Position numbers and translations under genes: made by a program
Shown here: positions 11,399-54,237 of the stretch, one piece after another
How the letters are laid out: each line of letters opens with the position of its first letter
How positions within the stretch are numbered: the first letter of the stretch is position 1
Notes under the pieces: model-generated
Database searches by the model: none
What the model was told of the DNA's origin: nothing
What the model saw: the letters and a program-made list of their open reading frames with translations, nothing else
Origin: Arbacia lixula
Lineage: Eukaryota > Echinodermata > Echinoidea > Arbacioida > Arbaciidae
DNA: 64,000 nt
Direction: 5' to 3'
Assembly (NCBI GenBank): GCA_963669155.1
Contig: OZ022576.1
Location: 37,665,807-37,729,806 of the forward strand

Positions 11399-11608
11399 AT
11401 GTCATCAGAATTTCCATCGGTAGCTATGAACTTGGTTACGCCGAGACTACAACGGGGCTTGTCAGTACGAACCTACCTCGTCGCGGCATTTTTATTATGG
11501 CTACATCTAGTACTAGTCGCGGAGTTTGCAGCTGCACAGGACGCGGCGTGTTCTGTTGAGAAGCTGGCACAAACATCAAATTGCAGTTTTCAGTATAATG
11601 AGAATCAG
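11399..11608 (+). CDS. Gene A exon 1: signal peptide and mature N-terminus
   Basis: Encodes residues 1-70 and ends in phase 0 at a CAG|GTATGT donor. The ATG at 11399 has A at -3 (accaccATG). A second in-frame ATG at 11426 (Met10) has G at -3 and would also leave a signal peptide. The hydrophobic core runs from about Tyr26 to Phe43, with a likely cleavage after the AAA at 44-46. The mature start has Cys51 and an NCS glycosylation site at 61-63, matching the Cys-rich start of D1. Read-through of the donor adds about 30 residues before a stop at 11701. Confidence 0.85.
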
Positions 11609-14600
11609 GTATGTATGCTCAGTATTATGTTACATGCTCAAATTGAGAAGAACGCATGTAAGTTGTATAGTAGACAAAGGCCATTCATTGACTTTTTTTA
11701 GTTCAGTTTTAAATTAACATTGCATACAGGACATTCTGCTAATGCTGGCAAATGATTGAATTTGAATTTATCTAAGTTTATGATACTGACATGTTTTGAA
11801 TGTTTCATTGCTTACATTAATCTGACATAATTATGTAGAGTTGTGTGTTAAATGGAGTTCTGGATGCTCTTAGCTATTTAACGACTAGTCAATATATATT
11901 CCGCCATGTTCCATGCTTAAAGGGATGGTTCACCCTGAAGATAAGTTCGTTTCAATAAAAGATGAAAGAAACATATTAGTGGAGGTTTGATGAAAATCCG
12001 TCAAAGGAAAAGAAAGTTATGATCTTTTAAAATTTAAAAAAAAAAAAAATTCACGTGCGAGGTGCTCTCCCATAATGTATGTTGTGTGCAGGACTGGACT
12101 GTCACTGTCACTACAAACTGGCATTTATACCTCAAATGCCAGTTTGTGACAGTGACAAATTGTGAGGAGGGAGAAAAGAGGAAAATGAAAGGGTAAAAAT
12201 AAACTCTTATCTAAAAGTTTTAAAAGTTTTGATTTTAAAGTTTTAAAAGTTAAAAGTTTCTTTCATGTAAATCATGTAAAATGCAATATCTGTTTGTATG
12301 AACCATTAATCAAATTGTAATACAGACTGCTTTTGAATTTGATTATAAAATCATTTTCATAAAAAGGTAAAAAAGATATACAATTCATGTACGAACCTAT
12401 TTCTCTTGAAGTATCTTTATTACGACAGATTTGTAATCAAATGCGAGTCAGGCTCTGACTCCATAATTAGTTATAAATCGTCTCTGACAGTTTTAAATGT
12501 TGTGACATGTGTGCTAAGTATTCATATATCCATGTATTCTTTTCAATGATAATGATGATGGTAATAAAACAATCGATCGATCAATCAATCAATCAATCAG
12601 TCAATCAATCAATCAATCAATCAATCAAGCAAGCAAATTAGCCATGTGCAAAGTCTTGGTTGATTTTAATTCTTTGCTGTAATCATGATGTGGACAAACT
12701 CAATGTACCATAGTGAGTCTGACGACAAAATCAATAGCCGACAGGTTGTCTCATTTACATGAATATACCCATTCCTTAGTTCGCCTCGAGCCCAGTTTTG
12801 AAGTATATCTCCACCAGCCTTGCACGATTCATGTCTTGATTAGGACAAGGATGCAGTGTGCATATGTACAGGCCATCAGTTGTTGCTACGTAGGGCAACC
12901 TGTCATTAGGAACTTTTGTTAAATAAGTTAATGGTATTAGCATGCTTTACGTGTTTCTCTTGGTTAGAATTTTTGGCTTTGTGAAATATGGTCCAGTAAG
13001 GATTTCAAAATTAACCATAGGACCGCAGTAACCAAAGGGGATTGGCTTAATTGCGCCCTGAAGTTCATTCACAGCCTGTCATCTATAGCATGTACGGCAG
13101 ATTACGTGAGAATCATGCTGCCCAGTATCTAAGTGGAGAAAAGCCATCCCACATATAAACATGCGGGCTCAGTAAAAAGCAGGTTAAAAGTTGATTTATG
13201 TAAGTAAACCAGAAGCTAGAATCTCCAAATAAACAAAAACATTCAACTGATGTTGCTCATGATAATTCAAAGTTCACTACGTGCAATAATTGTAACAAGT
13301 TTTCAATTCAAGCCCAGAGTGAACATTTTAGGGAAAAAATAAAAAGGGAGGAAATACATGTACATAAAAACTTGTGTGCTTTATAATTGCTTCACTTCTA
13401 TTCCTTCAGATCTAGTGTTGACAAGCTAGTACAAATTACAGCTAATGTCTTGACAATAATACTAGTATACATGTAACTAGATTTGCTACATAAGTATGGG
13501 AATATGGATCAGTACTTGGTGGAACGGTCTAGTACAAAACAAAGCAGATACTGTACAAGAAAAGCCAGACACAATTTCCAAATGTCTACTATTGAATGAT
13601 TTTTGGAACCTGACCTCTGGTCATATGAATATAGGGGTTTGTACAGTATTTAACCTGAGGCAGTTCTGTCTTTATTTGTAACATATCATTAAATCTGCTG
13701 TGAACCTAACCAAACAGTGTTTTTTTCTTTCACATCTGACCCACATTTTATTTAGTCCTATTTATTACCATATTCATCAATGGTCTTGTGGCCACTGCTT
13801 CTCTGGTATCTCATTATGCACCTTACAAAACGTAAGTGTAATTCTCACGGTTACCTTGTTTTTTTGTTACAAGTTTTGGCAAAATAGGCAGAGAGATATT
13901 TCAGAAAATTCAGAATATGTATGAGGTTTTGACGTTTTGTGAGGTTTGATCATGAATGAACAGCATTGATATTTCCAGTATGACACAGGAAGAATTGAGT
14001 CAGTGAAAAAAATTATGCTTGTTTATAACATAATTAACATGCAAACATATTTTAACAAGTCCTCTGAAAATAGTAGATCCATTTTAAGTAAGTACATAGT
14101 TTATACAAAATGATCATAAAACCTAATGAGAAAGTGTGTAGAAAAAAATAATTATGTATTCATCAGCTTACTACATGGCAAATCAAAAACAGTTTTGAAG
14201 TCCACATATGCCCTACAATTTCATAAATTAATGTTCTGGAAACCTTTAAAGTTATTGTTGTTTTTCAGTCTCTATAAATATTTAGTATGTTGTTCTCAGA
14301 GAATGCTTAGAGCGATTCAAATTTTAGGATTAGATATTTTTGCCTTTTCTCATAAGGAATTGCCTAGTACTGTTACAGTACATTTGAACATTCACTATCT
14401 ATAACATATCTTCTTGCATCCGAGCTGATTATTCAGTAGTGTCCTGTAGTACAGTATGTGGCGCTATGTCAGACATGAATCTCTTTGCAAACACTGCACA
14501 TTGATTTTAAGCATCGCAGCTGGTTTGCACCTATAATTTGTTACCCTTAGTTACAGCATGGACCCTACTGGTTAAAGCATATAGCCTTACTCTCACTGGT

Positions 14601-19586: not shown

Positions 19587-19682
<96 letters not shown>

Positions 19683-22600
19683 AAATGGTTCATTCAGAGT
19701 TGAGGGTAGTGATTTGTTACACCATTTATGTTATTTTCAAATGTATTCAATCTCACCCTATTTGTAATGCAAGACAAGAACATGGGAAAATCAGGCTGAA
19801 AAAAACATAATTTTAAAGTGGAGTTGTCTGTATGCTGTCACTCTTATTAATTCACGTCAACTGAGGTACTGCATGTCATTGAATAATGTGGCTCGTTAAT
19901 GTGAATTGCAATGGATGTGATTATTTTGACCAGCAGGTACATGTAGGATACATTTTCCAGTGTAAGTATGTGTATTTTTCCTACTTAAACCATGTTTATA
20001 AATACATGTATGTGTGCACAGTTGAACTGGTTTTGGTGACTGCATGCCAGCATGAAAAGAGCAAAGAAGAAATGAAATCATCTGGCTGTGAACATGTTCC
20101 AAGTTGTATCAAAATGGTCAATTGCCTCCACAAGGACCAAATACTTTCCATTCTCTTGTCTGGGTTAAATTGTCTCAATTCTGTGGTCTTTGGCTGTATC
20201 TGGTTTAAATTGTCTTGTCCATTCTATGATCTTTGACTGTACATATATCTGATTTAGATTGTCTCCATTGTATGGTCATTAACCGTTCAAATATATGGTT
20301 TAAATTGTCTGTATTTTATGGTATTTGACTGTATCTGATCTAATTTGTACAGCAACACAAATATGGCCAGCAAATGATCACACTACCATCATCCCTTCAT
20401 ATGAATAATGTTTGTTGCATTTTTGTTTATACACTGTAAGGGCTCATGATATAAACAAAGCTTTGCCCGAGTTAACCAATTATAATGTCATGTCATGATA
20501 TGTCATGTACTCTGCATTATTTTGTTATTTTAATTTTTTTATGCTGTGATATGGTTTTAATAGATTTGATAAATGGAACAAAATATGTGCAGGTGCATAT
20601 TTGCACTTCTATGAGGGTGCCAGCTGTATTTAGACACCTCTAGAGCAGAGAGTGAACATTAATACCTGTCAGTTTCTGTGATTTATGGTTGATGGTTGTC
20701 ATGAGCTACGTGCCTCGTAAACATGATTTGTGTTCCTGGAAACCAGTGGCTAGCGATTGCTGTTGTTGATGTAATCTATATGAAGCTTCATGTAGATCTC
20801 TGGCAGTTTAAATGGATCAATTGCAATGTTAATGTGAAGTTTCATACTGGGTACTTGAACTCTGTATTAGAAAATGTATTGCTGAATTTAGTTCATGCAT
20901 GCATACAAAGGGAACAATATTGGCATAGAGAAAAGATGAACAAGTAGAGTAAAGACACATGTGAGTTTCTTTTTGTAAATTTCGACATGTGTTACTTTAG
21001 GTTGAGATTTTGTGATTTGTTTGCAGTTTAAAGACTCATAACTTAAAACTCAGCATTTGTTGGTATCCGACCTGCAATGGCCTTCAAAAGGACAATAACT
21101 GACAACTACTTGTGCATGTGTACTGAATAAGTAAAAATATATTGATTGTCCTTTGAGGGAAACAGAAATAATATTTTCTCAATTACAGAGGAAGAAAAAT
21201 CAGACCTGAGAAGGAAGGTTTAAAAATTGTAACCTTCATCCATGTGTGTCAGTTTGTTCATGATCCTACTTACAATATATGTGATATAAATGGAAGTGCT
21301 GCAGGTTTCATTGTCAGTGGACACAAAGTACTAAATGATCCTGTCAGCACTTCCTCTTATAAAAATAGCCCTGAGGTTCAGTTTTGTTTATTTACCACTA
21401 TTAATATTTGTATCTTAACCTGTAACAAATTTGGAAATGATGAGAACATGTTTTTTTACTAGCTTACATGTAGGTCATGAAGGATATTTTGTCCCATATT
21501 TAAAAGTGGTTTATGATTATGAATCCTGTTTCCAACAAAACATTAAAACAAACTAGTGTTCAAACTAGTGTCTATCCGTTAGCTCAGGAGTCAGCAAAAC
21601 ATGATGTAGTAATGGCAATATAAATCATTTTTGTGTGGCAAGTTCTTATATTTATGGAACTATTTCACGATATCCTAGCTGTTTTATGGTGTCTTCTGTA
21701 CTACATTAGAACTTTGTGTCTTTGATCTTAATAAAAAATGCTGAAAACAATTCCCATTTCTACAAATTATACCATTAATTAGTTTGACTTAATAGATAAA
21801 AGAAATTTGTTCAAGTCTCTGTTCAATCCATCAACATCATATCATATCACTGTTGATTAGATATAATGCCTGGCAGTAGTGTTGTGTTGAGCTGTACTAA
21901 AAATGATGGAAGGATTATGAACACAACAAGTTCAACCTACTATCATTGGGTGCATTGCAATTATGACTACTCCCATTAGGGTTTCGTTCATGATTCATAA
22001 CACGTTTCTGCAGAATCAAGATTGCGTTCAGACGAAATTGAATATAAACGTGATTCAAATCACAAACCCAAAACGTGGAAAAAGGGGTGTTCGGAAACAC
22101 GTTTCTGCAGAATCATGTTCGAAAAAGGTCGCTTGAACGCAACCGTGATTTGAATCATGATTCTATTATCATGATTTTACTAAAAGGTGTTTATTTATCT
22201 CTAAAGGATACCACATTAACACATCGCATGCACTAGCAGCACCTATTAGTTAAAATGCAACATTTCCAGTGGACACACAATAGCAATGCTCGCGAGCAAT
22301 CAGTTAATACCATTGATATTCATCATTTGTTTATCAACAGTGTGACGCACACTGTACATGCGTATAGCATCTTGGGTATACCCCAAAATAATCTTGTCTG
22401 AGGCTGTGAGCGCTAGTCTAAAAATTTAGCAGCTAAGGAGCTAAATGTGTTTTATTTTGTTTGTAAGCTTAGACAGATTTTAATGAGTCGGCCATTTCTC
22501 TCCCTTTTTCTCTCTCCAGGATACTGTGCTGTGTACGGAGCATGCAGGGCACACGTGGGGCTATGCATTAGGTGAGAGACCGTGTTGACACATTTAGGCA

Positions 22601-25600: not shown

Positions 25601-28600
25601 TCACTGAATGAGAAAGTAACAATGCTGAAACCCCACCTCAATATTATCTGTAGAAAACAAATCAATTTGCTGATAATAGTATCAACCAAATGCTGTTAAG
25701 AATATAGTGTCTCTCTGCAGACATAATTCATTGAATTTTTGGTAAAACTCATTTAGGACCAGGTATCACATATATGGGGTTTGGGGTTTTGATAGCAATT
25801 CTACAATGAATAACAGATGGATCCAATATTATGAATCCATTATGTCATTTAGTGACATGTGTAACCTTCTTGAAGATTTTTCAGAGTGAAATATACAAAT
25901 GGAATAATAATTACTGAATCTTCAAAGAAGCAACACGTTGGAAGAGCTGAAAAACACACTTACGTCCCATAAATTTGCACAATGTATTTGTCAAAATTGC
26001 ATGTTTTGTTCAAAGGAGTGTATGTATTATTTTTTTGCCAATTTAAAACCCAAGTAAAGATCAAGATCCTGTGTTATATATAAGAGTTCAACTTGATTTC
26101 TGATTGATATCAATCGTAAACCTGTACATTAGACATAGAGGATTGGACTTGTGATCGTTGCAGGTCAATCACAACTCTTTATATGATGGGGCCCGTGCAA
26201 TTTTGCTCTGAACAGATATGGAGTACTGAAGTGGTGTTGTCATATGAGCATGCTGTGAAGACAATTGGCCCTAAACAAATTCACTCCACTGAGAGGTTTA
26301 GCAGTCCAATATTGTCTATCAGTCTAGTGTCAGGCATTCCAAATTATTATCCCCACTGTGATCACAGCTGCTTGCTATACCCGCATTGATTAGAACCAGT
26401 CGTCTTGACAGTAATGCTCAGATGATGTCCCACTTTGGTACTCTATTGGTCTTGAATAAGTTTAAACAATTCTACATGATGTACCATCCAGGCCGTTGTC
26501 CGAGCGAGACGCCGATCTATGAGGAGGGCAATGTCATACCTGGTGAGGTGAACGAAATGGCGGTCAAATTCATCTATACGACTCGGCCACGGACCATTAT
26601 GAATAATTACAGTGTGCATCTCATGGCCTCCTCTTGCCATCTGAACTGTAATAGCAGTAACGCCGATGTCCACATTGGCTTCAATATCAGTTTCCAGGCT
26701 GAACCGTGGGGTAAGTCAGACGGGTGGATTGGCGGTAAAGGGGGGCTTGGGGGAGGGGGGGGGGACTAAATTTCAAGCTTCACAAGTGATCATAATTGTT
26801 ATGATGCTTGATTGAATATTATCATTATTATTACTATTATGAATAGGATATGACAATGACATAATTTTTGTCAGAATGATTAATAAAATATTACTATTAT
26901 CATTTTTTAGGAGGAAATTGTCATTATTGTTATCGTAATGATTAATTGAATATTTGAAATATTTTTTTAAGGAGGAAAATATCATGCTTGTTACAATGAT
27001 TAATTCTTCATACCGAATATACATAAGGAAGAACTGTCCAAATGTGCACCATGCTGCACTTGTTTGCAGTCATCCCCAATTCCGGTTTATTAGCAAATGA
27101 GATGGGAAGTGCGTATATCTGCAAATATGCTGTGTGGTGTTTCCTATCCAGTACTGAAAATGAAATGTTATTGATATGATGACATATGCTCTGTTGTGCA
27201 TTGTGGGACGGCCTTTCATATATTTTGATAATATATGTTGATAATCATGACGTCTTGCTTGATGTTACAGCTGCAGAAGACCTATGGGGTTACGAGATCT
27301 CCCTGATAGAGGACTTACAGCACACTGTGCGGTGCCATTGGATCCTCCTGGATCAGCCAGGCCTGACCAGGGCCGCTGCTCAGCAGGTGAGACGGACCTA
27401 CAATTCTTGACTAACTCTTGAAGTACCATGCCAGGAAAGCCCTATTGACTTATTACACATTTCAGGCACCTATGGATGCAAAAATGGTTAAAGGGCATAT
27501 ACTGTACTGGGAAGGCAAAAAAGCCTTCAAAATGTAACTGTTAGCAATCTTCTTGCCAATGGTCTTAAATTCATGTATTGTCCATTTTAGAAGCTTGCTG
27601 AAAGTTATTTACCCTCAAATGATCCACATATGGAGTAATTAATGATTAATGATTAAATCCTCAAAATGTTCGGCCCGAACATTTTGAGGATTTGTGATTT
27701 AAACACTCATTACTCCAAATGTAGATCATTTGAGGGCAAATAACTTTCAGCAAGCTTCTAAAATAGACGATACATGAATTTAAGACAACTGGCAAGAAGA
27801 TTGCTAACAGTTACATTTTGAAGGCTTTTTTGCCTTCCCAGTACAGTATATGCCCTTTAATGGGGCCTCTACATCTTGTTCTTGGACTGCTTTTTCTTTT
27901 TTCTTCATATAGTTTTCCCCTTTTACTTTTCCCAATCCTTTACTTCTTTTGTCTTTCCTTATCCATTCCTTTTTCTCCTTATTCCGTTTTCTCCTGCATC
28001 CTCACATCTTTCTATGACCTTCTTTTCTTTGTTTTCTGCTCGTGTATTGACTCCCTGTTTTTCTGCCTTTTTGCTATTATATCTTTGTGATGTACATTCA
28101 TATCTAATTTGTATATATTTTTTAAAAAATAGAATACACATTTCCCCATCACTTACACTGTCCGATTCCCTGTTCATTGTAATAAATTTATCATAGGTTT
28201 AAAAGTTGCATTATTACTTGCTTAGGATTTCACAACGTTACTATAAAAAAATGTTCCTGCAGCACTTCAAGAGGAAAGGGAATGTGCTAAACAAAGGAGA
28301 AGCCGATATAAAATCTATTTGACTGAATTAATTTATTGGCCCATCTCCACATCGGAGTGGGTGCCAGTCATTATCAGGCTTATGATGATTAGCCTGAGCA
28401 TGAAGTGATGTGTAGGATGAGAGAGTGGCCAAACAGTTTCATGCCAACTTTCCTCTCTCTCATCCCATCCTGGAGGCATTGTGCCCCGTTGCCATGGGGC
28501 TAGTAAATATTGTGACAGTGCCCCTCGCTCTCCCAATGTGCCATTCATTACTCAGGTATTAATTGATTTCAGCCACCAGCGACTCGCTGCTTGCCGGGAA

Positions 28601-34600: not shown

Positions 34601-37600
34601 ATAGAGTGAAAATAAAAAAAAACACTCTGCTGATTCATTATGACAAATTATGCACACAACTTTTTTTTCATTGCTGTCATTGTGTACAATGTTTCAACCT
34701 TTCATTCATTTGAAAAAATCAAATGATTGAACTGCTGTGTAGTTAGTCACCAAATTGAATATATTCAATGTTGATTGAGTGAATTATTCAAAGTTAAACT
34801 TGATGTACCTAAACAAGGCTAAACTTGATTAATAGCCCATATGCAATACTCAATGCACTCAAGTGATATCTTTAACCTCTGTGCCAGACATGCAAATTGC
34901 TACTCTATAGGATTTGCATGTAGCACTCATCAAGTTGCGCAACTGTCACATGAAAAATTAACTGAACGCCGTGTACCTGAATGTTGTATAAAATATTGTT
35001 TGAAATTGTCTAAACTATTTTACCCTCTGAATCCTCTCAGCTCTTATTTGGCTTCTTTCTTTGTTTTTGGTTGATAATCAGCATGTGTTCTACTTTGATG
35101 GATTTATTGGTGCGAGTCCGGGCCTGCAGTACACCATCGATGTCACCCCACTCCCTACGGACTCCAGGAGATCGAACGCCCGCAGGATGCAAGTCGATGC
35201 TCCTCGGGAAACATGTAAGTCAGTTAATAATATGATAATAAAAAACACACATTTATACTGCGCTTTATACTATGTTTCTATGATGCTATTGTCCTTGCGA
35301 CTATTGACAAAGATATTTATCTTTGCCATGAGGAGGGCCAGGACATTAGCACCCATAAATATGAAATGAAAAGTTACGTTAGAAGATCATTAAGATAATA
35401 TGAACATAAAACCATGTGTAATTTATTGTACATAACTGAAAAAGTAGCGAAAGGACAAGTTGGGGCACAACTACAAGAAAACGGTTGACCTGTTTACAAA
35501 GATTTCAATAGGTGGGTTTTCAGTATAGTGTAGAAAGTGTGTAAGGATGGAGCAGCTTAGATTTTTTTATGGAAGGCTGTTTCCCATTTTGGAGCAGTGA
35601 AAGAGAGAGAGAGCTCTGTCACCGCAATGTGTGTAGTTGCAAGTAGCCCGATCTACCTCCCTTCCGAGAAAGTGTAGCCCATTTGCATGTCAAAAACATG
35701 AAAGTTTGTCAATACCACAGAAAATGGAAAAAAATGCTGTAAAAGCACCGCCCTCGCACTATTACAACTAGAAGCTGCTTTCAAACGGAAGGATTACAAT
35801 TCCAATTTGAATGTGGGATGCATTGGGGCGGTGCTCTAAGGACGATTAATTTGAGTGTGCTTTCAAATGACTTGTTGGCGCAGAAAGCACAGACTTTTCA
35901 CACGCTAGTGCATGATCATCGTGGCTTGTTGCGTGGAGTGCTTCTACCACAAGTCTGATGCATTCTCTGTAAATGGCTGGTGCTTTAATTGCATATTATT
36001 TCTGTCAAGAGATTATTTGTGCACTTGGGCAGCCTGATGAACTCTGAATATTTGTCTTGTTTGTCTTGCCAGGTTGGACACCAGATGTGATCGTGCATGA
36101 CACACCCTCAGCACTCAACTTGACTCTGCTGAAAGACAGTCAATTCTCTGTCTTCTCCATCATCCTCTACGAGGGCATTGTGCCGCCAACAAAAAAAGTA
36201 GACTTTAATGTAAGTGCTAACATAGAGGGGCACTTGGAGATGTCACATTCCTCTTCTTCTCCTTCTCCTCCTCTCTGTACTCCTCCTCCCTCTCATTTTC
36301 CTCCTTCCTCTCCTTCTCCCTATTCATTTTCTCCTTCTTCCTTCCATCCTTCTCCATCTCTCTCTCCTCTTTCTCCTTCTCTCTCTCCTCTTACTTTGAT
36401 TTTCATCCTTCTCTCCTCATTCTCCATCTCCCTCTCCATTTCTTTCTCCTCCCTCTCCTTCTCCTTCTCCTCCTTCACCCTCTCCTTTTCCTCCTTCTCC
36501 TCCTCGTCCTCTTCGTTCTCCTCCTCCTCCTTGTCCTCATTCTCCTCCTCCACCCCCTGTCCCTGTCCCTCCCCTCCCCCTCCTCCCCATCCTGCTTCCC
36601 CTTCCCCTGCTTCCCCTCCCTGTATTCCTCCTCCTCCTCCTCCTCCTCCTAACCTTTATCTCTCTTCCCCCCTGTACCCCGCTATCATGCCTCTGTCTCC
36701 CTCTCTCACTACTCATTTAATCACATTTCTCTTCCACACTTCCCAGTTTTCCCCAAATAATGCCCCCATATTGCATTGGTATTGTCTGTTTTTCAGAATA
36801 CTGAATTGTATAGCATCAATGGAAGACAGGGAGCTAATGTCTTTTTTGGCTGCCACAGACCAACAGCAGATGGGGAAACTCTCAAAGTATTTGTAAGTCT
36901 GAGAATTTTGAATATGATTTATCGTTTGTTTCTCATTTGACACCTAGCGATATCGTTCATGCCCAACTGACAAGGAAGCAATTTTAATGTATTTTTTTTT
37001 TATTTCATTGAATATTTCTGAATATATATATAAAATATTCATTATCTGTGTTCAAATTTGTTTGCATAATTCATGTACCGGAGATCATGTCTTAGTTCAA
37101 TTAAAGGAAAATTATTGTGCCTTTGTCAACAGATAATCAAGACTACACGCGAAATAGCAAATATCAAAAAAATAAAAAAAGCAATCAGGGCAATGAAATG
37201 TATGCCGGTATAGTAAACATTTATTCAGAATACTAGTCTTCATATGATTAGTTGTTCGTTCATCGATTTTGTGTCAACTTCCTTGATTTTCAGGTGGTCC
37301 CCAGAGAATGTCCGTACTGCGAATGGAATGTGACTGAGGTTGTTGTAAAGGGTAGGTACCCTGAGATTTTAAGGACCAATATTAGAACTTTGCTGACCCT
37401 TGTTAAGGTGACCACAAAGTTTCACTCTCAGTTCCTTTCTGGGTACAAACATCAGGGAAAAGTCTCAAAATTGTCAATTTATAGGCCCGTATTAGACCAC
37501 GGTTTAAGCAAATTTGTGCGTTTGATTTTATAGCGCATACTCTTAAAAAGGGTTCAATAATGAACGTGGGCGTTTGGCATAGGGTGCTAAATTGACCCTA

Positions 37601-40600
37601 GTTGTTGTGGTTAAGACTATGGTTTAATCAAATCATTTTGAATAAACTATGGCCAAACATGGTGTAAACATGACAAAAATGAATCCACCATGACTATAGT
37701 CCTATAATCTGTACTGCTTCTATATCTTAACTGAAACTTACTGTCAGTTTGCTTTTATTTTGAGTGCAGAAACTTTACAATATAACAGCTGTCGCCCCTG
37801 AGGGGTATTGCACCAATTTGTTCTTAAACTACAAATGACTTTATGCGCGCCTGATGACCCTTTCTTGTGCTTAATGAGACACCCCAATCTGTTTCTGCTC
37901 TAACATAGAAGGAGTTAATTTCCAACAATCCTAATCAAATTTGACAAATCATAAACTATGTATTCAGACACTTGTTAACAAAAAATTTAATTTATGAAGA
38001 TCAGACTTCAACTGTAGTTGCTGGGAATCAAAATTATGGAGAATTTGAGTCAGCATTAGAAGGGATCACCAGTCATACGTATAGTCGTTCATAGCTTTAG
38101 AACAGCGTGGTGAAACACCCCCCCCCCCCCCCAGTTTCCTTCCATCTATCCTCTTTTAACCCGTTCTTTACTGAGCTCACATTTTTTCAGTCGTGAAAAT
38201 ATCTTCATGTGACAATATTGACTTATGCCGTATGTAATATTATTACGACTCTCCTTATCATAAATCTTGTGGGCTGTTTTCCAGGTTGGAAGCCTGATAT
38301 TATCTACCACCCGACCCCGTTTGCTGTTAATGTGACTCTGCTGCAAGATGACGTCAGTGGTTTCTCCGCCTTCACCCTCGTCGTCCGGGGGGACGTGAAC
38401 ATCACCAAGCACATTGATTTCAAGGTGAGGAGTTGCATCACATGCTCTTCACATCAGTCCCATGCTAAGAGTATATAATGATTTGCAGGGTACTTCGATC
38501 TCCCATGCCAAGCATTTGTATGGGTCTATGCATGGCCCCTATTCTGAAAAGTCAACATGACGATCCCTACATTGTACTAGACCTGGGTATGATAGATGTG
38601 TTGTGAAATGTAAGCAAAAGATATTCCTATTTTTCACTCATTTACAGGATGGAGCACGCTATCCTCACTACTGGGTGTATGCCTACAATTTCTTTGTAAA
38701 TTGAAATTACCCCAGAATGCTCTTTCACTCAAATCTAACCAAAGATATTTCTCTTGAGATTGGAAGAAACGATGTTTACTTATGCCAATCCATGTTCTTT
38801 CTCAGACATATTAAGTTCATTTTTAACATCTGTCATAAATAGGGTTTTATGGCTTCCTTGATTGTGATGATTATAATGTGATTGTTCTTTCTCTTAGGAA
38901 GCAGAGTTATACCGAGTCAATGGAAAATGGGGGACTAACATCGTCTTTGACTGTCAAGAACCCAGATATGTAGAACTACTGGTAAGTAAATACTTCAATC
39001 ATTGTCTGTGCTCAAAATTTTTTACATGATTTATGTACTGGAGATCATCTCTCACTTCCATTACAGGAAAATGTTTTAAGTCTTTACAAAGAAAGATTTC
39101 CCTCGTTTTCACGAAGTTTATAGTTCCTGTCTATTTTGCATGAAAATATGCTTTCATTACCTGGCACAATGGTGAAGGTGGTTCTTAGTATAAGGTTAAC
39201 TTGAATGTGATAACTACATAGACTCTTTTAAACCGTCGTGTGCCACAGGTGACTTTTTCACAAATAAGCCACACAAATCCCATAGAGCAGCACTCTATCC
39301 GTCACAAATAAGGTTAATAGCAATAATCGATAAAGTACTGAAGTGTGACGTCATTTTAGCATTATTTTCAAGACAACTGGCTCTGAACGATGCGGGTAGA
39401 GCAAGCAGCGGTGATCACAACAGGGACTGTAATTGGGAATGCCGGACACTAGCCCAATAGGCAATATCGGACAGTTAAACCTATCACTGGAGTGAGTTTG
39501 TTTAGAGCCAATTGTCTTGACAACATGTTCATATGACGACACCACTTCAGTACTCTATGATTTCTTGGGACAAAGCCTGTATGAATTGATAATCACCTTC
39601 AATAGTAATCACATCAATGCCATATTCCCAGTGGCTGTAGAGATATATTGGCATGGAAAGCTACCTTGTATCTATGTCAGTCCTCTTTCTTTTTTAGGTT
39701 CGGCATACCTGATTTATATTAGTCTAAGCTTAGTGATACGCTCTTGGACAGTGATATAAAACATGAAGTTACATGTGTAATGAAGGGGTCATATGAGCAC
39801 ACAGACACAGGTTCATAATTTTATCAATTAACTCTTTGCTCGCTTCGTTCGACTCGCGGCACATACAGCGGGCTGCCAAGTTCGACTCATGTCACAGTTC
39901 GCGCACAATGCATACGGAACGCATTTAATTGTATTGTGCGCACACACATACAATAGCGACGCGTGCATTGCATTGTATACATATACACCCTACATAACAA
40001 TAAGAGGATTAAAGTATCAATAGGCAGGAAGTCTCCCAAGACAGGAAGTCTATTGAGAAGTACCCAGGGTCACTTTCAATAGAGGAGTTTAGTTTATTGT
40101 TAGCTTGCTCTTTTTGAATGCCACATTTAAATCATAAATTGCTTGGCTCATTATTCCCATCAAGACATGAGTTTGGTATGTAATGAAAGCTAAAGAACAT
40201 TCTTCTTTATGAACTAACCTATAGAATAACTTTCATTAGGACATATTGAATATAAGAGGTATCAAATAACCTCCAAAACGATAATTTGTAGACAGAATAT
40301 AAAGTTAAAATTCTCAGAATCTATGATATTATACATGACAAAATTTATACCATTGGCAAGAGTATTGATTTCTGTTAGACTTTGCTACACATTTGTTTTC
40401 ATCACGACAAACCAATAAAAAGTTATCGCGAGTTGAATATTAAAGACAGTGCATGCAAAACCCCTCTGAATGTGGCACCCTGAAATTAATGTGGCGCAGG
40501 GGAGATAATGTGCGTGGCGGGCAAAGAGTTAAGACTTCATTTCTTATTTCCATTATTTTACTGTGATTTCTGTGATGAAACCAGGCTTCATAGATCAAGG

Positions 40601-43600
40601 TTGGTTTTCTGAAAAGTGTCTGTATCTTTGTATCTTTTGAGGTATCTTTTTGAAATAATAGAGAGCAAATATTGTTTTAAGTTTGTATTTTGAAATTTGT
40701 TGAATCTCGTTAAGGACCTCCTCTGTATTATCTTTGAAACACTCTCCATTGTTGAGATTCAACCAATCGAATTTGGTTTTATTTAGGGGTCTATGTCTAT
40801 CACCCAATCAATACAAGATGTAAGGTACAACAAAAGATAAAACAATGTGGACAATTCCAACTTTGTAAGTGCAAAGATACAACAATATTAAGAAAAAGGA
40901 ACCATTTTAAGATCACTTTCGCTAGGTATACATACTTGAGGAGAATGCAACGTCCAGTATCAAATGGATATTAACAATTATTCCCTTGCTGCTGTTCAAC
41001 CTAGATCCATCCAGATGAATGTTCCTGTTGTGACTGGAACCTGAGCCACATCTCAGTCCAAGGTTAGTCTCCAAACAGTTCTCATCTCCCTTTCGTTTCA
41101 CTAGCAACCATACTGCTGTTAATCCTCTCAGTGCCAAGCTTTGAAAAGCTAACTGGTTTGTTACACATGTATGTGCCTATGGGACTGTGAAGGTTAAGCT
41201 TACTGCCAGTGTAAAGGCACTCAACAGGGAATATGCTGAAATTATTTGTCATTTTGACCTCAGTTTAGGACTTTAAATGGTATTTTGTCAATTAAGCAGA
41301 TCATAGTGAAGGTTGGTCTCCAAACAGATACAACCTCCCTTCATTCCATCACTGTTCAACCTACTGCCAGCGTGAAGGCACACTACAAGGAATGAGGTCA
41401 AATTGTGTGTCATTTGGATCTCAATTTAGAACATTGAATGTTTTTTTGTTCATATATCATATGGTGAAACATCATCAGATGTGACAGCAGGGGAGATTGT
41501 ATCATTATATCATTGTGCTCAAAGGATCCAACTTTTTTGCCCTTGAATACAGTCCAATAGTGAATAGTGATGATTGTCGTACCCCCTGCCATCCAAACTT
41601 AGAACATGGTCAAAGGTAGTCAGGGTGTACTATGATTTAGAGGATACTGGTGTAAGCTTCGTTATCACTTTCAGATGATATGTTCATAGAGAGGATATGG
41701 TTTTAAGTTTCATAAGCTCGTACAGAGGAAAGGTATTCAAGTTTCAAAAAGTTTCAAAAGCTCTCTTAGAGAATATGTTTTTAAGTTTTAAAAGCTCTTT
41801 AAGAGAATACAATTTCAAGTTTTAAAGGCTTCATTAGAGAACACAGTTTCAAAAGCTCTTTTAGAGAATATGGTTTTAAGTTTCATAAGCTATTATAGAT
41901 ATATGGTTCTAAGTTTCAAAAGTTCATTTTGAGAAAACGTTTTTTAGGTTTCAGGAGCTTTTTTGGTGAATACTGTTTTAAATTTCCTCAACTCTTATCT
42001 GACTCTGCATGCTGTATCCTAACTCATCTCTCAGGTGTCCCTCCCTCCTTCAAGGACTGCCCATCCAGAGTGGTCAAGCAGGTAGAGCTGGGCAGTGTGA
42101 ACACAGCCGTCAGTGTGGACTGGCCCCTGCCCGTACCAGTCTTCTTGGAGCCGGATTGCCAGACTGGCTGGAACAGCAGCCATCAGCCCCTGCGGAGCTT
42201 CTTCGCAGTCAATGCCACCACCAGGGTCTCCTACCATGCCTGGCAGTACAGCATGGTGGCTAACTGCTTCTTTGATGTCACTGTTGCCCTAGGTAACCAG
42301 GACGGGAGGGGGTATTCTGAAAAGTTTCTGAAAAGGGTGGCATGCGCACTCTGGTAGCAAAATAATGAAGAGAGAGAGAATGAGAGAGGAAGATTACTAG
42401 AGAGGGAAAGAGAGAAGGAAAGATGAGGAAAAAAAGAGAGGGGGTTGGTATTCAGAAATTTTTTGAAAAAGGTGGCATATGCACTCTGGTAACAAAATAA
42501 TGAAGAGAGAGAATGAGAGAAGAAAATTATTAGGGAAGGGAAGACAGAGAAAGAGAGAGAGAAGGAAAGATGAGGACAAGGGGGGGGGGATCGAGGTATC
42601 TGAAAATGACCTTAAGTTTGCACTTATGTCCCCTGTGATCTATGGCGTTATTGGCATAGTTTTAGAACTAAGTCAGTTCTTGGAATATCAACTGGAAAGT
42701 GTAGCTAAGACAGTTTTTGACTCAAGATTCTCTAAGAATGCCACCCAAGTTTAGAGGTGAACTATCCATGTTGGATGGTTGTCATAAGCTGTCTTTGGAA
42801 ATGAAGGGGGCATGCCCACTCTGGTAACAAAACAGTGAAGCAAAGGAGAATGAGAGAAATAGATAGAGGAAGAGAGAGAAAGAGGCAGAGAGAGAGAGAG
42901 GAAGATAATGAGAAAGTGAAAGAGCTAGAGAAAGAGAGCATGAGAGATGAAGAAAAGCAATAATGAGGGATTACATATCATTGAGCAGCATGCTAGCAGT
43001 AGTCCACTAAATTTGAAACCCAATATTAGAGGTCAAGACACGGTTCCGCATATTCACTCGTTATCATATCTCTCCTGCAGTGGACACTACTCCCCCAGCA
43101 GTGGACTATTGTCCAGCAGACATCACTGTGGTAGCGGAGATGCAGGAAGACTCGCTACCGGTCAGCTGGGACCAGCCCCGGGCCACTGACCAGTCGCCCA
43201 TTACCATCCAATGCAGTCACCATAATGGCTCTCTCTTCACAGTGGGTGACAATTTGACGGTCAGATGCGCATTGGAGGATTCCCATGGAAACAGGGCCCG
43301 GGATTGTGTGTTCTTTGTAGTCCTACTCGGTAAGTGATTGCCATGGAAACATAGCCCTGGATTGTGTGTTCTTTGTAGTCCTACTCGGTAAGTGATTGCC
43401 ATGGAAAGATGACCCTGGAAAGTGTTCTTTGTAGTCCTACTCGGTAAGTGATTGCCATGGAAACATAGCCCTGGATTGTGTGTTCTTTGTTTGTGCAAAG
43501 TGCAAGGAAGTGACTGATCTTTGACTTTTATAACCTCAAAAAGTATAACATTTTAATCCAGTACTACACAGCAGGGTTTGCATTACCTAGACATCAACCG

Positions 43601-45685
43601 AATCATTACTAGACATTGTGCGACATTTAATGTATTCACTTTGGGTTTTTTCTCTTTCTGTTGCATGTAGTGCTTGGTTTAGTTTTCCCACAATTGAAAT
43701 GAACTTATGTATTGAACTATGTTTTTCTCATCTTTCCAGGCAAGCCCACCGCATCTCTTCCCCTGATCCTGGCGTGCTGCGTTACTGGTGCGGTGATTGC
43801 CTTGATATCTGGGTTTATATACTACAGGAAATGCAGCATGGGCAATAAACCGGGTAAGACTGAATACAGCGTTGCCCAGTCCTTGCACTCTCAGTTGATG
43901 TGTTTTTTTTTACAGCAAAAGCTGATCATTATTTGCTGAATTGGCAACATTCTTTTTTTGTGATGAGATGTTGATTATGAAAAGGAATGTTTATTTCATT
44001 ATGAATTACATGAAATGAAAAACATACACTTCAGAGCAATGTTTTTGCAAATAGAATGAGCAACTTTAAAATTTTTCAGCGCTTTACCAATTTGAAAATT
44101 TAGTGATTATATGACCTTTTGATTTGAGAAATTTACAACATCAAGGTAATGCATATCACTGAATGTTAAAAATGGGTTAATTTCTTGCAGAAATGTATGC
44201 TCTTAATTGTGATGCATATTTTACTATTTTTAATAATTGATATCAAATGTTATACCCTCATACCATATATTTATGGTAAATGAGAAACTCCTGTCCAAAA
44301 ATATAACTTAATATGCACCGCAATCAAGACCCAAGTTAACTTTTGATTTCTGGGAGCAAATGGTTAAAACGATTTATTCTGAAAAAAAATCTCATGGTGA
44401 TCTTCTAATAAGATAAATATTATGTTCATTTAATGTTTTTTTGATATCCTTTAATATCAGTCATAAATTCAAGAAAGGAAATGTATGGATCCAGGGGTGG
44501 TATTCTAAAAATCCACAGAGATGACAAATTTATCTCCCCTAAGGTAAAATGTCCCTAAACTATTTTATCTTTGGGATTCCGAAATTTATATAAAGAAAAT
44601 TTTCACCAATATTAATGAGCGCATGCCCTGCGCTCCTATTCCTGAGGCAGCCAGTAATAGAATCTGTCTTTTGCATACATTAACACCATCAGGCTGATGG
44701 TATGATGTCATGAGACTGACAATGTATATTGCACATCAGTGTGCCTTATTGCATTTGGTGCGCGTATATGCATGAAGTTGAATGTGCGAATTACTTGCTC
44801 GGGAGTAGTTTTATCTTTTATCCTTTTTTTCCTAAGTACATTTCAGAATACCAATGTAGCTCCTTTGCAAAATAAATTTATCTCTGAGGCTCATTTACAT
44901 GAACAATTTTATCTCTAGCTAATTTGAATAAACATTTTATCTTTTATCCTACGTTGGCTTTTCGGAATACCCCCAAAAAATGTTTTCCTAACTCCCTGAG
45001 AGACAATTACATTGTTCCTAAGTCCATTTTCAGAATATCCCCCCAGAGATGAATGATGGATTGGTCCTGTAGCTAGCGCTGGTCAAATATGGTGCTGGTA
45101 TATATCTTTTTATACTTGTTTCATGATATCATCTAGTATTCTGTTGGTTAGTTTGCCACGTACAGCAACCTCTCTGACGCGGACTAAAACGCTGCTGCGG
45201 ATCCGCAGCGGATCCGCGGCGAATCCTCAGCAACCTTTTACTTATCCATTCCTGCTGATGCGACCATTTTCTCTGTTTCCTCTCCCCCCACAGATGAGAT
45301 AACAATGAGTAATCCGGAGCAGAATGTCAAGTACCCAAACATATTGGATATCCAGTTTTTTGAAAGTACTCAATCTGTGACCAGCTCTCACGTCAAGAAT
45401 GCGGAGTTCTACACCAAAAGCAACAGCCCCCCGCAGCGCAGTAGCTCAGAGTCGAACCTGTCATCGGGGTTCCACAGCGGAAAATCTGCAGAGTTCCAGG
45501 AGAGCTTTGGATATGCGGCGGAGGCCGAGGAGCAAGAGAGTGAGACTCTGCTGCCTTCACACCCACCGTACGACTCGAACAGGACTTCCACCACCAATGT
45601 GGAGCTGGATGTGCAGTCGTGTGTGTCCGGCTCGCTTGGCGATTTTGGAGTGTCCATACGAGACGCATATGAGTCTGCATCCTAG
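11399..45685 (+). CDS. Gene A: IL-17-receptor-like ectodomain with HYR domains and one membrane helix, no SEFIR (15 exons, 771 aa)
   Basis: Join: 11399-11608, 22520-22571, 26492-26710, 27271-27386, 35082-35214, 36073-36209, 36797-36892, 37294-37351, 38285-38424, 38898-38981, 41005-41062, 42035-42292, 43081-43329, 43740-43853, 45294-45685. All borders are GT-AG and every phase matches, giving 2316 nt. Order: signal peptide (about 1-46), D1 (about 51-243), D2a (244-340), D2b (341-434), HYR-like (435-520), HYR (521-603), membrane helix (about 610-632), tail (633-771). D1 shows the IL-17R layout (NxS/T-rich strand, then LWGYEISLIED, a Cys, then QYTIDVTPLP). D2 shows the WxPD start, a long beta region and a CxxC ending. 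IL-17 receptors normally carry a cytoplasmic SEFIR domain; the 139-residue tail is too short and shows none. Many N-glycosylation sites fit an extracellular role. Ligand and signalling are unknown. Gene structure is firm; the IL-17R family call is motif-based. Confidence 0.82.
11917..12160 (+). mobile_element. Left arm of the CRE-bearing MITE family, with a hairpin, intron 1
   Basis: Starts TTAAAGGGATGGTTCACCCT and includes GATGAAAATCCGTCAAAGGA and CACGTGCGAGGTGCTCTCCC. It is followed by a strong hairpin (12101-12126 pairs with 12134-12156 except for a 3-base bulge). No matching right arm is visible. Confidence 0.7.
12571..12628 (+). repeat. TCAA tetranucleotide microsatellite
   Basis: About 13 units of ATCA/TCAA in intron 1 of gene A. 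Confidence 0.9.
12960..13165 (+). repeat. Dispersed repeat, copy 1
   Basis: Shares GCAGTAACCAAAG, GGCTTAATTGCGCCCT, CCCAGTATCTAAGTGGAGAA and AAGCCA with 47955-48155. The copies are about 200 bp and in the same orientation. The family is not recognised. Confidence 0.65.
14941..15015 (+). mobile_element. 3' end fragment of the same RTE-type element in gene A intron 1
   Basis: TTGGCAATGGAAAGGAAAGC and TGGTCGCCAACGTCACGAGA, followed by a short GA stretch, match 55760-55850 closely. It is 5'-truncated, as is common for non-LTR insertions. Confidence 0.75.
16741..16804. repeat. Perfect 26-bp-stem hairpin in gene A intron 1
   Basis: 16741-16766 and 16779-16804 are exact reverse complements. The 12-base loop itself holds the palindrome GTCCGGAC. 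It begins TTTTATAGTGAGAGTTACCC. Confidence 0.95.
17100..17222 (+). pseudogene. Short Myb/SANT-like frame, possible Harbinger-type relic
   Basis: A 40-codon open frame reads MANRDEKSLRGKNWENDEEL and goes on to LRANPDIAKQFRGNCN. The spacing of W, DEEL, L and QF resembles the start of Myb/SANT-like domains found in Harbinger transposons and HARBI-associated proteins. It lies in a segment with repeated GCTAAAGTTA motifs and a strong hairpin at 16741. The call is tentative. Confidence 0.3.
18890..18998 (+). repeat. Two-copy tandem repeat, about 60 bp
   Basis: CATATGGATACTGGCTTAAA and CACATGGATACTAGCATAAA mark the two copies, in intron 1 of gene A. Confidence 0.75.
19501..19682. repeat. GA microsatellite with G runs
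   Basis: About 90 bp of (GA)n preceded by G-rich sequence, in intron 1 of gene A. Confidence 0.95.
20164..20350 (+). repeat. Degenerate tandem repeat, about 55-60 bp, 3-4 copies
   Basis: Units are built on GGTTTAAATTGTCT, then ATTxTATGGTCTTTGACTGT, in intron 1 of gene A. Confidence 0.75.
22520..22571 (+). CDS. Gene A exon 2 (52 nt)
   Basis: Acceptor is tctctccag and donor is TTAG|GTGAGA. It starts in phase 0 and ends in phase 1, encoding DTVLCTEHAGHTWGYAL plus one base. It corresponds in place, size and phase to the 49-nt exon 2 of gene B, which encodes a peptide of similar length with one Cys. This exon is too short to stand out as an open frame and was placed by splice signals and phase. 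Confidence 0.75.
22611..25290. mobile_element. Outer inverted-repeat element interrupted by a pogo-like insertion
   Basis: 22611-22730 and 25175-25290 are inverted copies: both contain CTAATTxxxxTTAATGTGA-type sequence, GCATGAxTGGGCAAATTTTA and GTAACTTTTC. The arms are about 110 bp. Most of the length between them is the 2.1-kb element at 22874-24981, so this looks like a nested insertion in intron 2 of gene A. Confidence 0.65.
22874..24981. mobile_element. 2.1-kb pogo/Tc1-mariner-type non-autonomous element
   Basis: The left end is CAGTCAAACCTGTCTATAGC and the right end is the inverted GTTTGACTG, each flanked by TA (22872-22873 and 24982-24983), as expected for Tc1/mariner/pogo insertion. 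Subterminal copies of CACTATAGACAGGTGACC occur on the left and GGTGGCCGCTAT on the right. No transposase frame is visible. The region 24340-24500 is unusually GC- and CpG-rich. Confidence 0.75.
26222..26442. mobile_element. 221-bp inverted-repeat element, copy just before exon 3
   Basis: The left end is AGTACTGAAGTGG and the right end is CCCACTTTGGTACT. The interior matches the 39.3-kb copy in opposite orientation. It ends 50 bp before exon 3 of gene A, so it lies next to the branch-point region of that intron. Confidence 0.75.
26492..26710 (+). CDS. Gene A exon 3: first half of D1
   Basis: Acceptor is ccatccag and donor is TGGG|GTAAGT, phase 1 to phase 1, residues 88-161. It starts with a short Cys motif (GRCPSE) that aligns with the start of gene B exon 3 (DTCTTG), and ends on a beta strand (VHIGFNISFQ) that aligns with TCLNITFEIN in gene B. 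This is the core beta strand of IL-17R D1. The exon begins 50 bp after a 221-bp inverted-repeat transposon that ends near 26442. Confidence 0.82.
26780..27012 (+). repeat. Degenerate tandem repeat, about 80 bp, in intron 3
   Basis: Three to four copies built on ATAATTGTTATxATGATTxATTGAATAT and AGGAGGAAA, between exons 3 and 4 of gene A. Confidence 0.7.
27271..27386 (+). CDS. Gene A exon 4: second part of D1
   Basis: Acceptor is gatgttacag and donor is CAGCAG|GTGAGA, phase 1 to phase 0, residues 161-199. The segment LWGYEISLIED...C is the strand in IL-17 receptors that reads G[FY]E[IV]xL followed by a Cys. It aligns with GLLFKFTSLRD...C of gene B, and the intron falls at the same place in both genes. 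A 373-bp palindromic element lies 100 bp downstream. Confidence 0.85.
27488..27860. mobile_element. 373-bp near-perfect palindromic element with TTAA ends, intron 4
   Basis: The two halves are reverse complements over almost the full length. Both ends read TTAAAGGGCATATACTGTAC (right end inverted), and the centre is TTCGGCCCGAA. The first 40 bp on each side pair perfectly. It starts 100 bp after exon 4. TTAA ends suggest piggyBac-type mobilisation. Confidence 0.85.
30530..30740 (+). repeat. Two-copy tandem repeat, about 128 bp
   Basis: GAGTTGATTATCTGTGC, GATAAAC and GTGAGGCTTTAAAGA-type blocks recur at about 30535 and 30664, in intron 4 of gene A. Confidence 0.8.
30897..30952. repeat. Mini inverted-repeat element with TTAA ends
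   Basis: TTAACCCTTTGTAATTGACA at the left and GCTGAGAGGGTTAA at the right, 56 bp in all. Confidence 0.55.
31662..32058. mobile_element. About 400-bp inverted-repeat element in intron 4
   Basis: The left end contains AACACCATGTAGTTGTATTC and AGGATAAATTA. The right end has the inverted TAATTATCCTGAAAGAATAC and AACCACATGGTGTT. The inner arms AAAAGAGTGAAAAAAGG and TTTTCACTCTTTTCC also pair. Confidence 0.75.
35082..35214 (+). CDS. Gene A exon 5: end of D1
   Basis: Acceptor is gataatcag and donor is ACAT|GTAAGT, phase 0 to phase 1, residues 200-244. The motif LQYTIDVTPLPT matches the last strand of IL-17R D1 (xYxVxVxxLP, then a linker). The split last codon becomes Cys when joined to exon 6 (T + GT), giving the linker Cys seen between D1 and D2 in the family. 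Confidence 0.85.
36073..36209 (+). CDS. Gene A exon 6: D2a, first part
   Basis: Acceptor is tcttgccag and donor is TTTAAT|GTAAGT, phase 1 to phase 0. It encodes CWTPDVIVHDTPSALNLTLL and onward to KKVDFN (residues 244-289). The WxPDxI start followed by an LNLTLL strand and FSVFSIILYEG matches the start of IL-17R D2 and is clearly homologous to exon 9 of the same gene. Confidence 0.85.
36236..36720 (+). repeat. Pyrimidine-rich tract (TCCTCC/TTCTCC) in intron 6
   Basis: About 480 bp of nearly pure C/T on the coding strand fill most of intron 6 of gene A. The tract leaves an open frame rich in Ser and Pro, but that frame does not join to exon 7 in phase, so it is not coding. Confidence 0.9.
36797..36892 (+). 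CDS. Gene A exon 7: D2a, middle part
   Basis: Acceptor is ctgtttttcag and donor is GTATTT|GTAAGT, phase 0 to 0, 32 codons (residues 290-321). It encodes NTELYSINGRQGANVFFGC and onward, which pairs with EAELYRVNGKWGTNIVFDC in exon 10. A Cys is conserved in both copies. It is preceded by a very long pyrimidine-rich intron. Confidence 0.82.
37294..37351 (+). CDS. Gene A exon 8: D2a, last part (58 nt)
   Basis: Acceptor is gattttcag and donor is AAGG|GTAGGT, phase 0 to 1. It encodes VVPRECPYCEWNVTEVVVK (residues 322-340). The paired cysteines (CxxC) followed by a short strand are the usual end of IL-17R D2. It has the same length and phase as exon 11. Confidence 0.82.
38285..38424 (+). CDS. Gene A exon 9: D2b, first part
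   Basis: Acceptor is ctgttttccag and donor is TTCAAG|GTGAGG, phase 1 to 0, residues 341-387. It encodes GWKPDIIYHPTPFAVNVTLL and onward to HIDFK, the second copy of the exon 6 module (137 nt versus 140 nt). Shared features are WxPD[VI]I, TP at the same spacing, a glycosylatable strand ending TLL, and the DF[NK] exon end. Confidence 0.85.
38898..38981 (+). CDS. Gene A exon 10: D2b, middle part
   Basis: Acceptor is ttctcttag and donor is CTACTG|GTAAGT, phase 0 to 0, 28 codons (residues 388-415). It is the counterpart of exon 7, four codons shorter at its end. The motif AELYRVNGKWG and the Cys after VFD are conserved. Confidence 0.82.
39334..39554. mobile_element. 221-bp inverted-repeat element, copy in intron 10
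   Basis: The ends are AGTACTGAAGTG and CACTTCAGTACT, perfect inverted repeats, with inner parts (GACAACTGGCTCTGAA versus TTAGAGCCAATTGTCTTG) also paired. It is the same length as the copy at 26222-26442. Confidence 0.75.
39828..40532. mobile_element. TTAA-flanked inverted-repeat element in intron 10
   Basis: The left end is TTAACTCTTTGCTCGC and the right end is GCGGGCAAAGAGTTAA, inverted with one mismatch and both ending in TTAA. The interior is CpG-rich at first and has no transposase. TTAA ends suggest a piggyBac-type non-autonomous element. Confidence 0.65.
41005..41062 (+). CDS. Gene A exon 11: D2b, last part (58 nt)
   Basis: Acceptor is ttcaacctag and donor is CAAG|GTTAGT, phase 0 to 1. 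It encodes IHPDECSCCDWNLSHISVQ (residues 416-434). I found it by looking for the missing partner of exon 8. It has the same length (58 nt), same phases and the same pattern (xxPxEC-x-x-C-[DE]-WN). Without it, exons 10 and 12 do not join in frame. Confidence 0.82.
41197..41450 (+). repeat. Local duplication downstream of exon 11
   Basis: GGTTAGTCTCCAAACAG next to the exon 11 donor recurs as GGTTGGTCTCCAAACAG at about 41310. A second shared block (CTGCCAGTGTAAAGGCAC and its following 80 bp) occurs at about 41204 and 41367. Confidence 0.7.
41697..41960 (+). repeat. Degenerate tandem repeat, about 46 bp, before exon 12
   Basis: Five to six imperfect copies built on GTTTTAAGTTTCAAAAGCTC and TTAGAGAATATG. 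The array ends about 75 bp before the exon 12 acceptor. Confidence 0.8.
42035..42292 (+). CDS. Gene A exon 12: HYR-like domain 1
   Basis: Acceptor is catctctcag and donor is CTAG|GTAACC, phase 1 to 1, 258 nt (residues 435-520). It encodes a domain starting PPSFKDCPSRVV and ending SYHAWQYSMVANCFFDVTVAL. The CP near the start, a VSVDWPLPVP strand and the final NCFFDVTV strand are the HYR (hyalin repeat, Ig-like fold) pattern. The fit is weaker than in exon 13 because the usual DxxGN turn is absent. Confidence 0.75.
42337..42930 (+). repeat. Three diverged copies of a GA-rich unit in intron 12
   Basis: A unit starting with GCACTCTGGTAACAAAATAA and followed by GAGA-rich sequence occurs at about 42345, 42480 and 42815. 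The first two are preceded by a 'ggtattctgaaa'-type motif also seen at the ends of an inverted-repeat element at 44.5-45.0 kb. Confidence 0.7.
43081..43329 (+). CDS. Gene A exon 13: HYR domain 2
   Basis: Acceptor is tctcctgcag and donor is CTCG|GTAAGT, phase 1 to 1, 249 nt (residues 521-603). The sequence has the full HYR signature: DTTPP, YCPADITV, VSWDQPRATD, FTVGDNLTVRC, then DSHGNRARDCVFFVVL. HYR domains are common in echinoderm extracellular and adhesion proteins. The end of this exon and its donor are repeated in the following intron (43339-43492). Confidence 0.92.
43281..43492 (+). repeat. Tandem copies of the exon 13 end and its splice donor
   Basis: A unit of 56-58 bp that starts in exon 13 (CCATGGAAACAGGG) and includes the donor CTCG|GTAAGT is repeated in the intron. 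GTAAGT donors lie at 43330, 43388 and 43444, followed by a partial fourth unit without a donor. The copies keep the exon-like sequence TTCTTTGTAGTCCTACTCGG. Confidence 0.92.
43740..43853 (+). CDS. Gene A exon 14: membrane helix
   Basis: Acceptor is catctttccag and donor is CCGG|GTAAGA, phase 1 to 1, 114 nt (residues 604-641). It encodes a single helix of about 23 residues (LPLILACCVTGAVIALISGF then IYY) followed by a basic stop-transfer RKC. The topology is type I. Because the exon is symmetrical (phase 1-1), skipping it keeps the frame and would yield a soluble protein. Confidence 0.85.
44493..45045. mobile_element. Inverted-repeat element (MITE-like) in intron 14
   Basis: The left end reads GGGGTGGTATTCTAAAAAT and the right end reads TTTTCAGAATATCCCCCC, which are inverted. 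The interior has repeated TTTATCT and CCTAAG motifs and no open frame. A related fragment lies near 15820-15930 (CTCCTAGG...GGAATACC). Confidence 0.55.
45294..45685 (+). CDS. Gene A exon 15: cytoplasmic tail and stop
   Basis: Acceptor is ctcccccacag, starts in phase 1 and ends at TAG 45683-45685 (residues 642-771). The tail is polar, with a Ser-rich stretch (684-706) and an acidic stretch (718-725). It contains ESETLL (723-728), which fits the acidic dileucine endocytosis signal [DE]xxxL[LI]. Tyrosines at 655, 681, 715, 734 and 767 could be modified, but none sits in a motif I recognise. There is no SEFIR, TIR or death domain. Confidence 0.85.
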
Positions 45686-54087: not shown

Positions 54088-54237
54088 ATGTTGCACTCTT
54101 ATCACGCCACCCCGGCCCTGCCGATCATAAAGTTGGTGTTTAGAGTTTTAGCATTGCTGCTGAGCTGTGGGCCCGTAAGAAGTCTCGACGGCCCAATCCA
54201 ACGGTGCCAGGGCCCTTACCAGTGGGATGCACAGCGG
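54088..54237 (+). CDS. Gene B exon 1: signal peptide
   Basis: Residues 1-50, donor CAGCGG|GTAAGA, phase 0. The ATG has G at -3. The hydrophobic segment is PIIKLVFRVLALLL. The mature part holds Cys40. The exon encodes RCQGPYQWDAQR before the donor, comparable to the Cys-containing end of gene A exon 1. Confidence 0.75.

Follow-up and report, generated by a model that had tools for sequence, protein, structure and literature searches.

The window analysed here, a 64,000-nucleotide stretch of Arbacia lixula DNA spanning C1:37665807-37729806 (+), contains a gene that we call gene A (11399..45685, +). Using open reading frames, scored splice sites and codon bias, we modelled it as 15 exons encoding 771 residues. 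The introns are of the GT-AG type, their phases fit throughout, and the sole stop codon stands at the end. An earlier note on this DNA had read the gene as 15 exons joined in phase, 771 residues and a 139-residue tail with a stop, and the rebuilt model returned the same figures. Codon scoring was trained on eight HYR matches together with hand-picked exons; because these exons were gene A's own, the scores lend the model no independent support. Flanks of 100 kb on either side of the window, the upstream one in part, were also searched with gene A, and coordinates above 64000 are given below as window-equivalent positions. Rfam, used at the gathering threshold, gave no match in the window.

All exons of gene A lie on the forward strand (+). 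Exon 1 (11399..11608) supplies the start codon and residues 1-70, including, by hydropathy, a signal-peptide-like hydrophobic stretch (residues about 27-45). Exon 2 (22520..22571; 52 nt, phase 0 to 1, residues 71-87) was placed by splice scores and phase and is the least certain exon, although a 49-nt exon of gene B, described below, supports it with identical phases. The D1 region is spread over exons 3 to 5 of the model: exon 3 (26492..26710) encodes its N-terminal part and has a counterpart in the paralogous gene C (exon 128664-128453, −), exon 4 (27271..27386) its middle (LWGYEISL ... C), and exon 5 (35082..35214) its end (FYFDGFIGASPGLQYTIDVTPLP), matched by gene C exon 122963-122831 (−); exons 4 and 5 were also assigned by profile comparison. 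The first D2-type unit follows in exon 6 (36073..36209), which starts with W-x-P, exon 7 (36797..36892) and exon 8 (37294..37351), which closes the unit with CxxCxW. Exons 9 (38285..38424), 10 (38898..38981) and 11 (41005..41062) make up the second D2-type unit and duplicate exons 6, 7 and 8, respectively, exon 9 being identified by sequence search as well as by the model. Exon 11 was placed by splice scores and phase, supported by its resemblance to exon 8 and to a gene C exon of equal length (58 nt). Each unit spans three exons; the two stand in tandem as duplicates, with equal phases and a last exon of 58 nt in both.

Beyond these units, the earlier note had read a HYR-like domain and then a HYR domain. 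The second was clear, as exon 13 (43081..43329, phase 1 to 1) matched Pfam PF02494 over the cut-off (56 bits, E = 5e-15). The first was marginal: exon 12 (42035..42292, phase 1 to 1), which resembles the HYR-like exon of gene C, scored 20.5 bits (E = 6e-4), just below the cut-off of 21.7. Exon 14 (43740..43853, phase 1 to 1) encodes the single predicted membrane helix, at about residues 612-630 (hydropathy 2.56 across 19 residues), and exon 15 (45294..45685) encodes a cytoplasmic tail of 139 residues and the stop. Overall, the Pfam search of the 771-residue translation found HYR, left D1 below its cut-off and gave no match for D2 or SEFIR.

Two further observations concern HYR exons. A 58-bp tandem repeat at 43278..43490 (+) copies the end of exon 13 together with its splice donor. 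The donors after 43329, 43387 and 43443 score equally, and an in-frame stop is met when reading past the first of them; use of the donor after 43387 or 43443 would yield a secreted form of the outer part of gene A. Elsewhere the genome is rich in HYR, with large HYR exon clusters at C17:1682298-1741164 and on contig C6.

Gene C (128664-99481, −) lies 54-83 kb downstream of the end of gene A, beyond gene B. Its 10 exons join in phase to give D1, one D2-type unit, a HYR-like domain, a HYR domain, a membrane helix and a short tail with a stop; exons for its N-terminus did not turn up in the searched downstream flank. The HYR domain matched Pfam in its second copy only (1.4e-10), and the HYR-like exon had no Pfam match. 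In blastp, the products of genes A and C aligned at E = 2.5e-30, with about 27% identity over gene A residues 98-528. By segment, identity was 30% in D1, 31% in D2a, 23% in D2b, 38% in the HYR-like domain, 25% in HYR and 28% in the helix plus tail. In five of these six segments none of 2000 shuffles reached the observed score, and for the helix plus tail three of 2000 did. The tail alone was not significant, as 515 of 5000 shuffles reached its score; we therefore rejected tail homology as proven, and the two tails appear only marginally alike. Gene C shares with gene A the domain order, the phases and the lack of SEFIR but differs in having one D2-type unit instead of two and a tail of about 93 instead of 139 residues. 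The located parts of gene C agree with gene A in order and phases and so support the predicted gene A model independently. A plexin-like run of coding-like exons, recognised by eye, adjoins gene C at 139186-163623 (−, window-equivalent).

Gene A by itself reached no Pfam IL-17R model's cut-off. The sole Pfam match in its D1 region was to IL17R_D_N (PF16742; E = 0.17), where 12.3 bits fell short of the cut-off of 25, and phmmer against solved structures gave no match at E up to 10. Compared by hhalign with a profile of four human receptors, gene A residues 51-434 alone scored 28.9, the best of 200 shuffles being 24.9, a likeness that is suggestive only. Gene C passed the Pfam model IL17R_fnIII_D1 (PF16556; 28.4 and 30.1 bits, cut-off 26), with E = 1.6e-6, or 4.5e-7 for its D1-D2 piece; NCBIfam gave no match to the gene C D1-D2 at E up to 1. 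When the D1-D2 regions of genes A, B and C were combined in a joint profile and compared with a profile of human IL17RA, IL17RB, IL17RC and IL17RD, the match reached 91% probability (E = 9e-7, score 51.2), the best of 200 column shuffles being 21.8; the alignment spans D1 only. A profile of genes A and C without gene B still gave 81% (E = 1.3e-5). Since gene C exceeds the PF16556 cut-off and matches gene A at E = 2.5e-30, the assignment of gene A D1 to the IL-17R type is firm, resting on the paralogue and the joint profile. The D1 proposed in the earlier note, weak in gene A alone, is thus upheld, and D1 is the likeness that gene A shares with these four human receptors by profile-profile comparison. 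The human receptors have SEFIR and are not known to carry HYR.

The two D2 assignments fared less well. Pfam found no family in either unit. Against the human D2 profile the units scored 19.7 (shuffle maximum 16.6), but just 9 columns were aligned, and against the D2 of gene B and of a second SEFIR receptor described below they scored 13.2 over 4 columns (shuffle maximum 23.6). The putative D2 identity in gene A rests on position, on the W-x-P start, which is also found at the start of D2 in human RA, RB and RD, and on intron phases; profiles gave no confirmation. The D2 intron phases are common to genes A and B; the second SEFIR receptor shares them in the two exons that were seen. Of the order D1, D2, D2 given earlier, D1 therefore stands, and both D2 assignments agree with position, W-x-P and phases without profile confirmation. 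Because D2 is unconfirmed by profile, the ligand-binding surface of gene A may be incomplete.

Genome-wide, a search with the gene A D1-D2 region returned 12 matches: nine from gene A, two from gene C and one on contig C14 (E = 0.71, with two internal stops). When the genome was searched exon by exon with PF16556, the single place returned was gene C exon 5, below the cut-off; gene A was missed. An alternative reading is that gene A descends from an IL-17 receptor but has lost IL-17 binding, and would serve in adhesion or recognition through its HYR stalk and duplicated D2-type units. This would suit a genome in which HYR is very numerous (150 matches scored of 1343 first-look candidates), D2-type units that lie past profile recognition and the low overall identity between genes A and C. 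However, both paralogues have retained D1, at the identity given above, and the pair has remained near a SEFIR receptor; we consider the loss of IL-17 binding unlikely.

That SEFIR receptor is gene B (54088-76132, +), in which 12 candidate exons join in phase to encode 830 residues. The first four candidate exons (54088-54237, 57409-57457, 59780-59929 and 61869-62005; together 54088..62005, +) lie within the window, and the gene runs on to 76132. The order is a signal-like start, D1, a D2-type part, two cysteine-rich EGF-like exons, a membrane helix and SEFIR. In Pfam, SEFIR matched at E = 3.4e-10 and D2 matched Ig_ILCR1 at 8e-4, below the cut-off, and no D1 family matched the D1. The EGF-like label comes from the cysteine pattern, as Pfam EGF reached just E = 4.5. 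The first exon and the exon at 69782-69895 are candidates, and the frame stays open without the latter. By blastp, gene B was matched by gene C at E = 2.4e-9 and by gene A at just 0.002. Gene B resembles gene A in its D1 region, D1-D2 intron phases and membrane helix but carries an EGF-like stalk and SEFIR where gene A has a HYR stalk and a plain tail. Between genes B and C we noted by eye reverse-transcriptase-like and zinc-finger-like frames (81923-78972, −, window-equivalent).

The SEFIR of gene B lies 29 kb downstream of gene A, outside the window and in a separate gene. We rejected the exon as a part of gene A, since it is accompanied by D1, D2-type, EGF-like and membrane exons of gene B. 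A second 3' end, in which gene A exon 14 would splice past the gene B exons to this SEFIR exon and so produce a full receptor, could be joined in frame, exon 14 ending in phase 1 and the SEFIR exon starting in phase 1. Such a splice would nevertheless skip the signal-like, D1, D2-type, EGF-like and membrane exons of gene B. Moreover, gene C, on the opposite strand, has its own corresponding terminal exon and could not be spliced in cis to the gene B SEFIR exon. We regard this 3' end as highly improbable.

An exon-level search of the whole genome (607 Mb, 590 contigs), which could miss a SEFIR split over exons by introns, found SEFIR in two places, gene B and C1:12281011-12281490 (−); neither gene A nor gene C was among them. 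On the Pfam, flank and genome searches, within that limit, we rejected a SEFIR elsewhere in gene A. The absence of SEFIR from gene A, as first noted from the window, accordingly holds: its tail has no Pfam family, and both genomic SEFIR places belong to other genes. The second SEFIR receptor (C1:12280552-12314842, −) has a D2-type part, four cysteine-rich EGF-like exons, a membrane helix and SEFIR. Its D2 passes Pfam PF23608 (Ig_ILCR1; 3.8e-8), and D1 was not identified within the 50 kb examined. The EGF-like modules sit between the D2 and membrane exons; one of the cysteine-rich exons passes the Pfam EGF cut-off and one falls just below it.

Outside the two receptors, the same exon-level search found no Act1-like SEFIR gene. 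This agrees with the available part of a study of sea urchin IL-17 receptors, which found no Act1 homologue in echinoderm genomes (PMC5457136). Therefore, inability to recruit Act1 may not be what distinguishes gene A in this animal.

We also considered whether the gene A tail itself could signal. No Pfam family matched it at E up to 10. Ten motifs were tried; of those present, only an acidic di-leucine (ESETLL) was unusual for a tail of this composition, at an uncorrected P of 0.047, which is weak among ten motifs, and it was absent from the gene C tail. YxxPhi occurred at chance level, and the PPxY, NPxY, YxxQ, TRAF2 and TRAF6 patterns were all absent. In place of SEFIR, gene A might signal alone through an unfamiliar tail, for example by phosphotyrosine recruitment. 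The tail is long, and its alignment with the gene C tail has a common stretch (LDIQFFESTQSVTSS / VDLNFLMESQSVVST). According to the available part of the same study, echinoderm genomes yielded no Act1 homologue, and tyrosine-based STAT5 recruitment has been proposed as possible for sea urchin IL17R1 (PMC5457136). However, the likeness between the tails did not rise above shuffles, the tail lacks a Pfam domain, and the patterns just named were at chance or absent, so that we assign independent signalling a low probability.

Gene A is best explained, as far as sequence can tell, as encoding a single-pass membrane protein whose ancestor was an IL-17 receptor. The stalk consists of HYR-like and HYR domains in genes A and C and of EGF-like modules in both SEFIR receptors found. 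The EGF-like, HYR and membrane exons are all of phase 1-1, and each of the two SEFIR exons starts in phase 1; because of these matching phases, stalk and tail could be swapped by exon shuffling, and we infer that they may have been exchanged at phase 1 joins. The D1-D2 part of gene A would then bind IL-17-type cytokines at the cell surface, and the protein itself would not signal. It could be a decoy tethered to the membrane, or else a co-receptor that binds ligand and tunes the SEFIR receptor next door, gene B. Such a role near the gene B product, tethered and non-signalling, as decoy or co-receptor for IL-17 ligands, is the likeliest, and we favour it with somewhat better than even confidence. 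The earlier note, whose view took in neither gene B nor gene C, had proposed a decoy, a co-receptor or a receptor with a different tail; all three are kept here, with decoy or co-receptor likeliest.

The gene B SEFIR receptor lies between genes A and C. A broader reading, which we put forward tentatively as possible rather than probable, is that genes A and C represent a separate IL-17 receptor subfamily. Exon shuffling would have put two HYR domains and a new tail in place of the EGF-type stalk and SEFIR, the two genes, flanking the SEFIR receptor, would form a built-in pair of decoys or co-receptors, and the repeated donors after the last HYR exon of gene A would allow a secreted form.

IL-17 receptor relatives without SEFIR are already known in vertebrates. 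IL17REL lacks SEFIR and resembles the outer part of IL17RE (PMC10143491, in the part available), and snakehead IL-17RE2 and the fish IL-17RE-like proteins also lack SEFIR (PMC11942210, PMC11136934, likewise in part). Vertebrate IL17REL and snakehead IL-17RE2 thus resemble gene A in combining an IL-17R-type outer part with the lack of SEFIR. The available excerpts describe them with an IL-17R_N-type outer part and mention no HYR, whereas gene A has D1, two D2-type units, two HYR domains, a clear membrane helix and a 139-residue tail. IL17_R_N gave no Pfam match in gene A at E up to 10, but since the D1 model that gene C passes likewise failed to pick up gene A, this says little. Among echinoderms, the sea urchin SpIL17R1 and SpIL17R2 have 17 and 16 exons, outer parts of 535 or 662 residues and, in both cases, SEFIR (PMC5457136, available part). 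They resemble gene A in their many exons and long outer parts but differ from it in having SEFIR. Their more likely counterparts here are, we infer, gene B and the receptor at C1:12.28 Mb.

Our literature search, outside which most subscription papers lay, found no paper joining an IL-17 receptor or SEFIR with a HYR domain, so that the domain order, which the earlier note did not know to have been described, appears in that search as undescribed in its HYR form. What appears to be new is the HYR-stalked form; with SEFIR-less vertebrate relatives known, gene A is a variant rather than the first relative to lack SEFIR.

Defence of the gut by IL-17 signalling is ancient. In the purple sea urchin, 35 IL-17 genes stand against two SEFIR receptors, according to the available part of the report (PMC5457136). 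Receptor counts based only on SEFIR miss relatives such as genes A and C, and the presence of two SEFIR-less genes close to a single SEFIR receptor suggests that the receptor side is richer than such counts indicate. Genes A and C are defined genes with which decoy or co-receptor control of IL-17 could be tested in an invertebrate.
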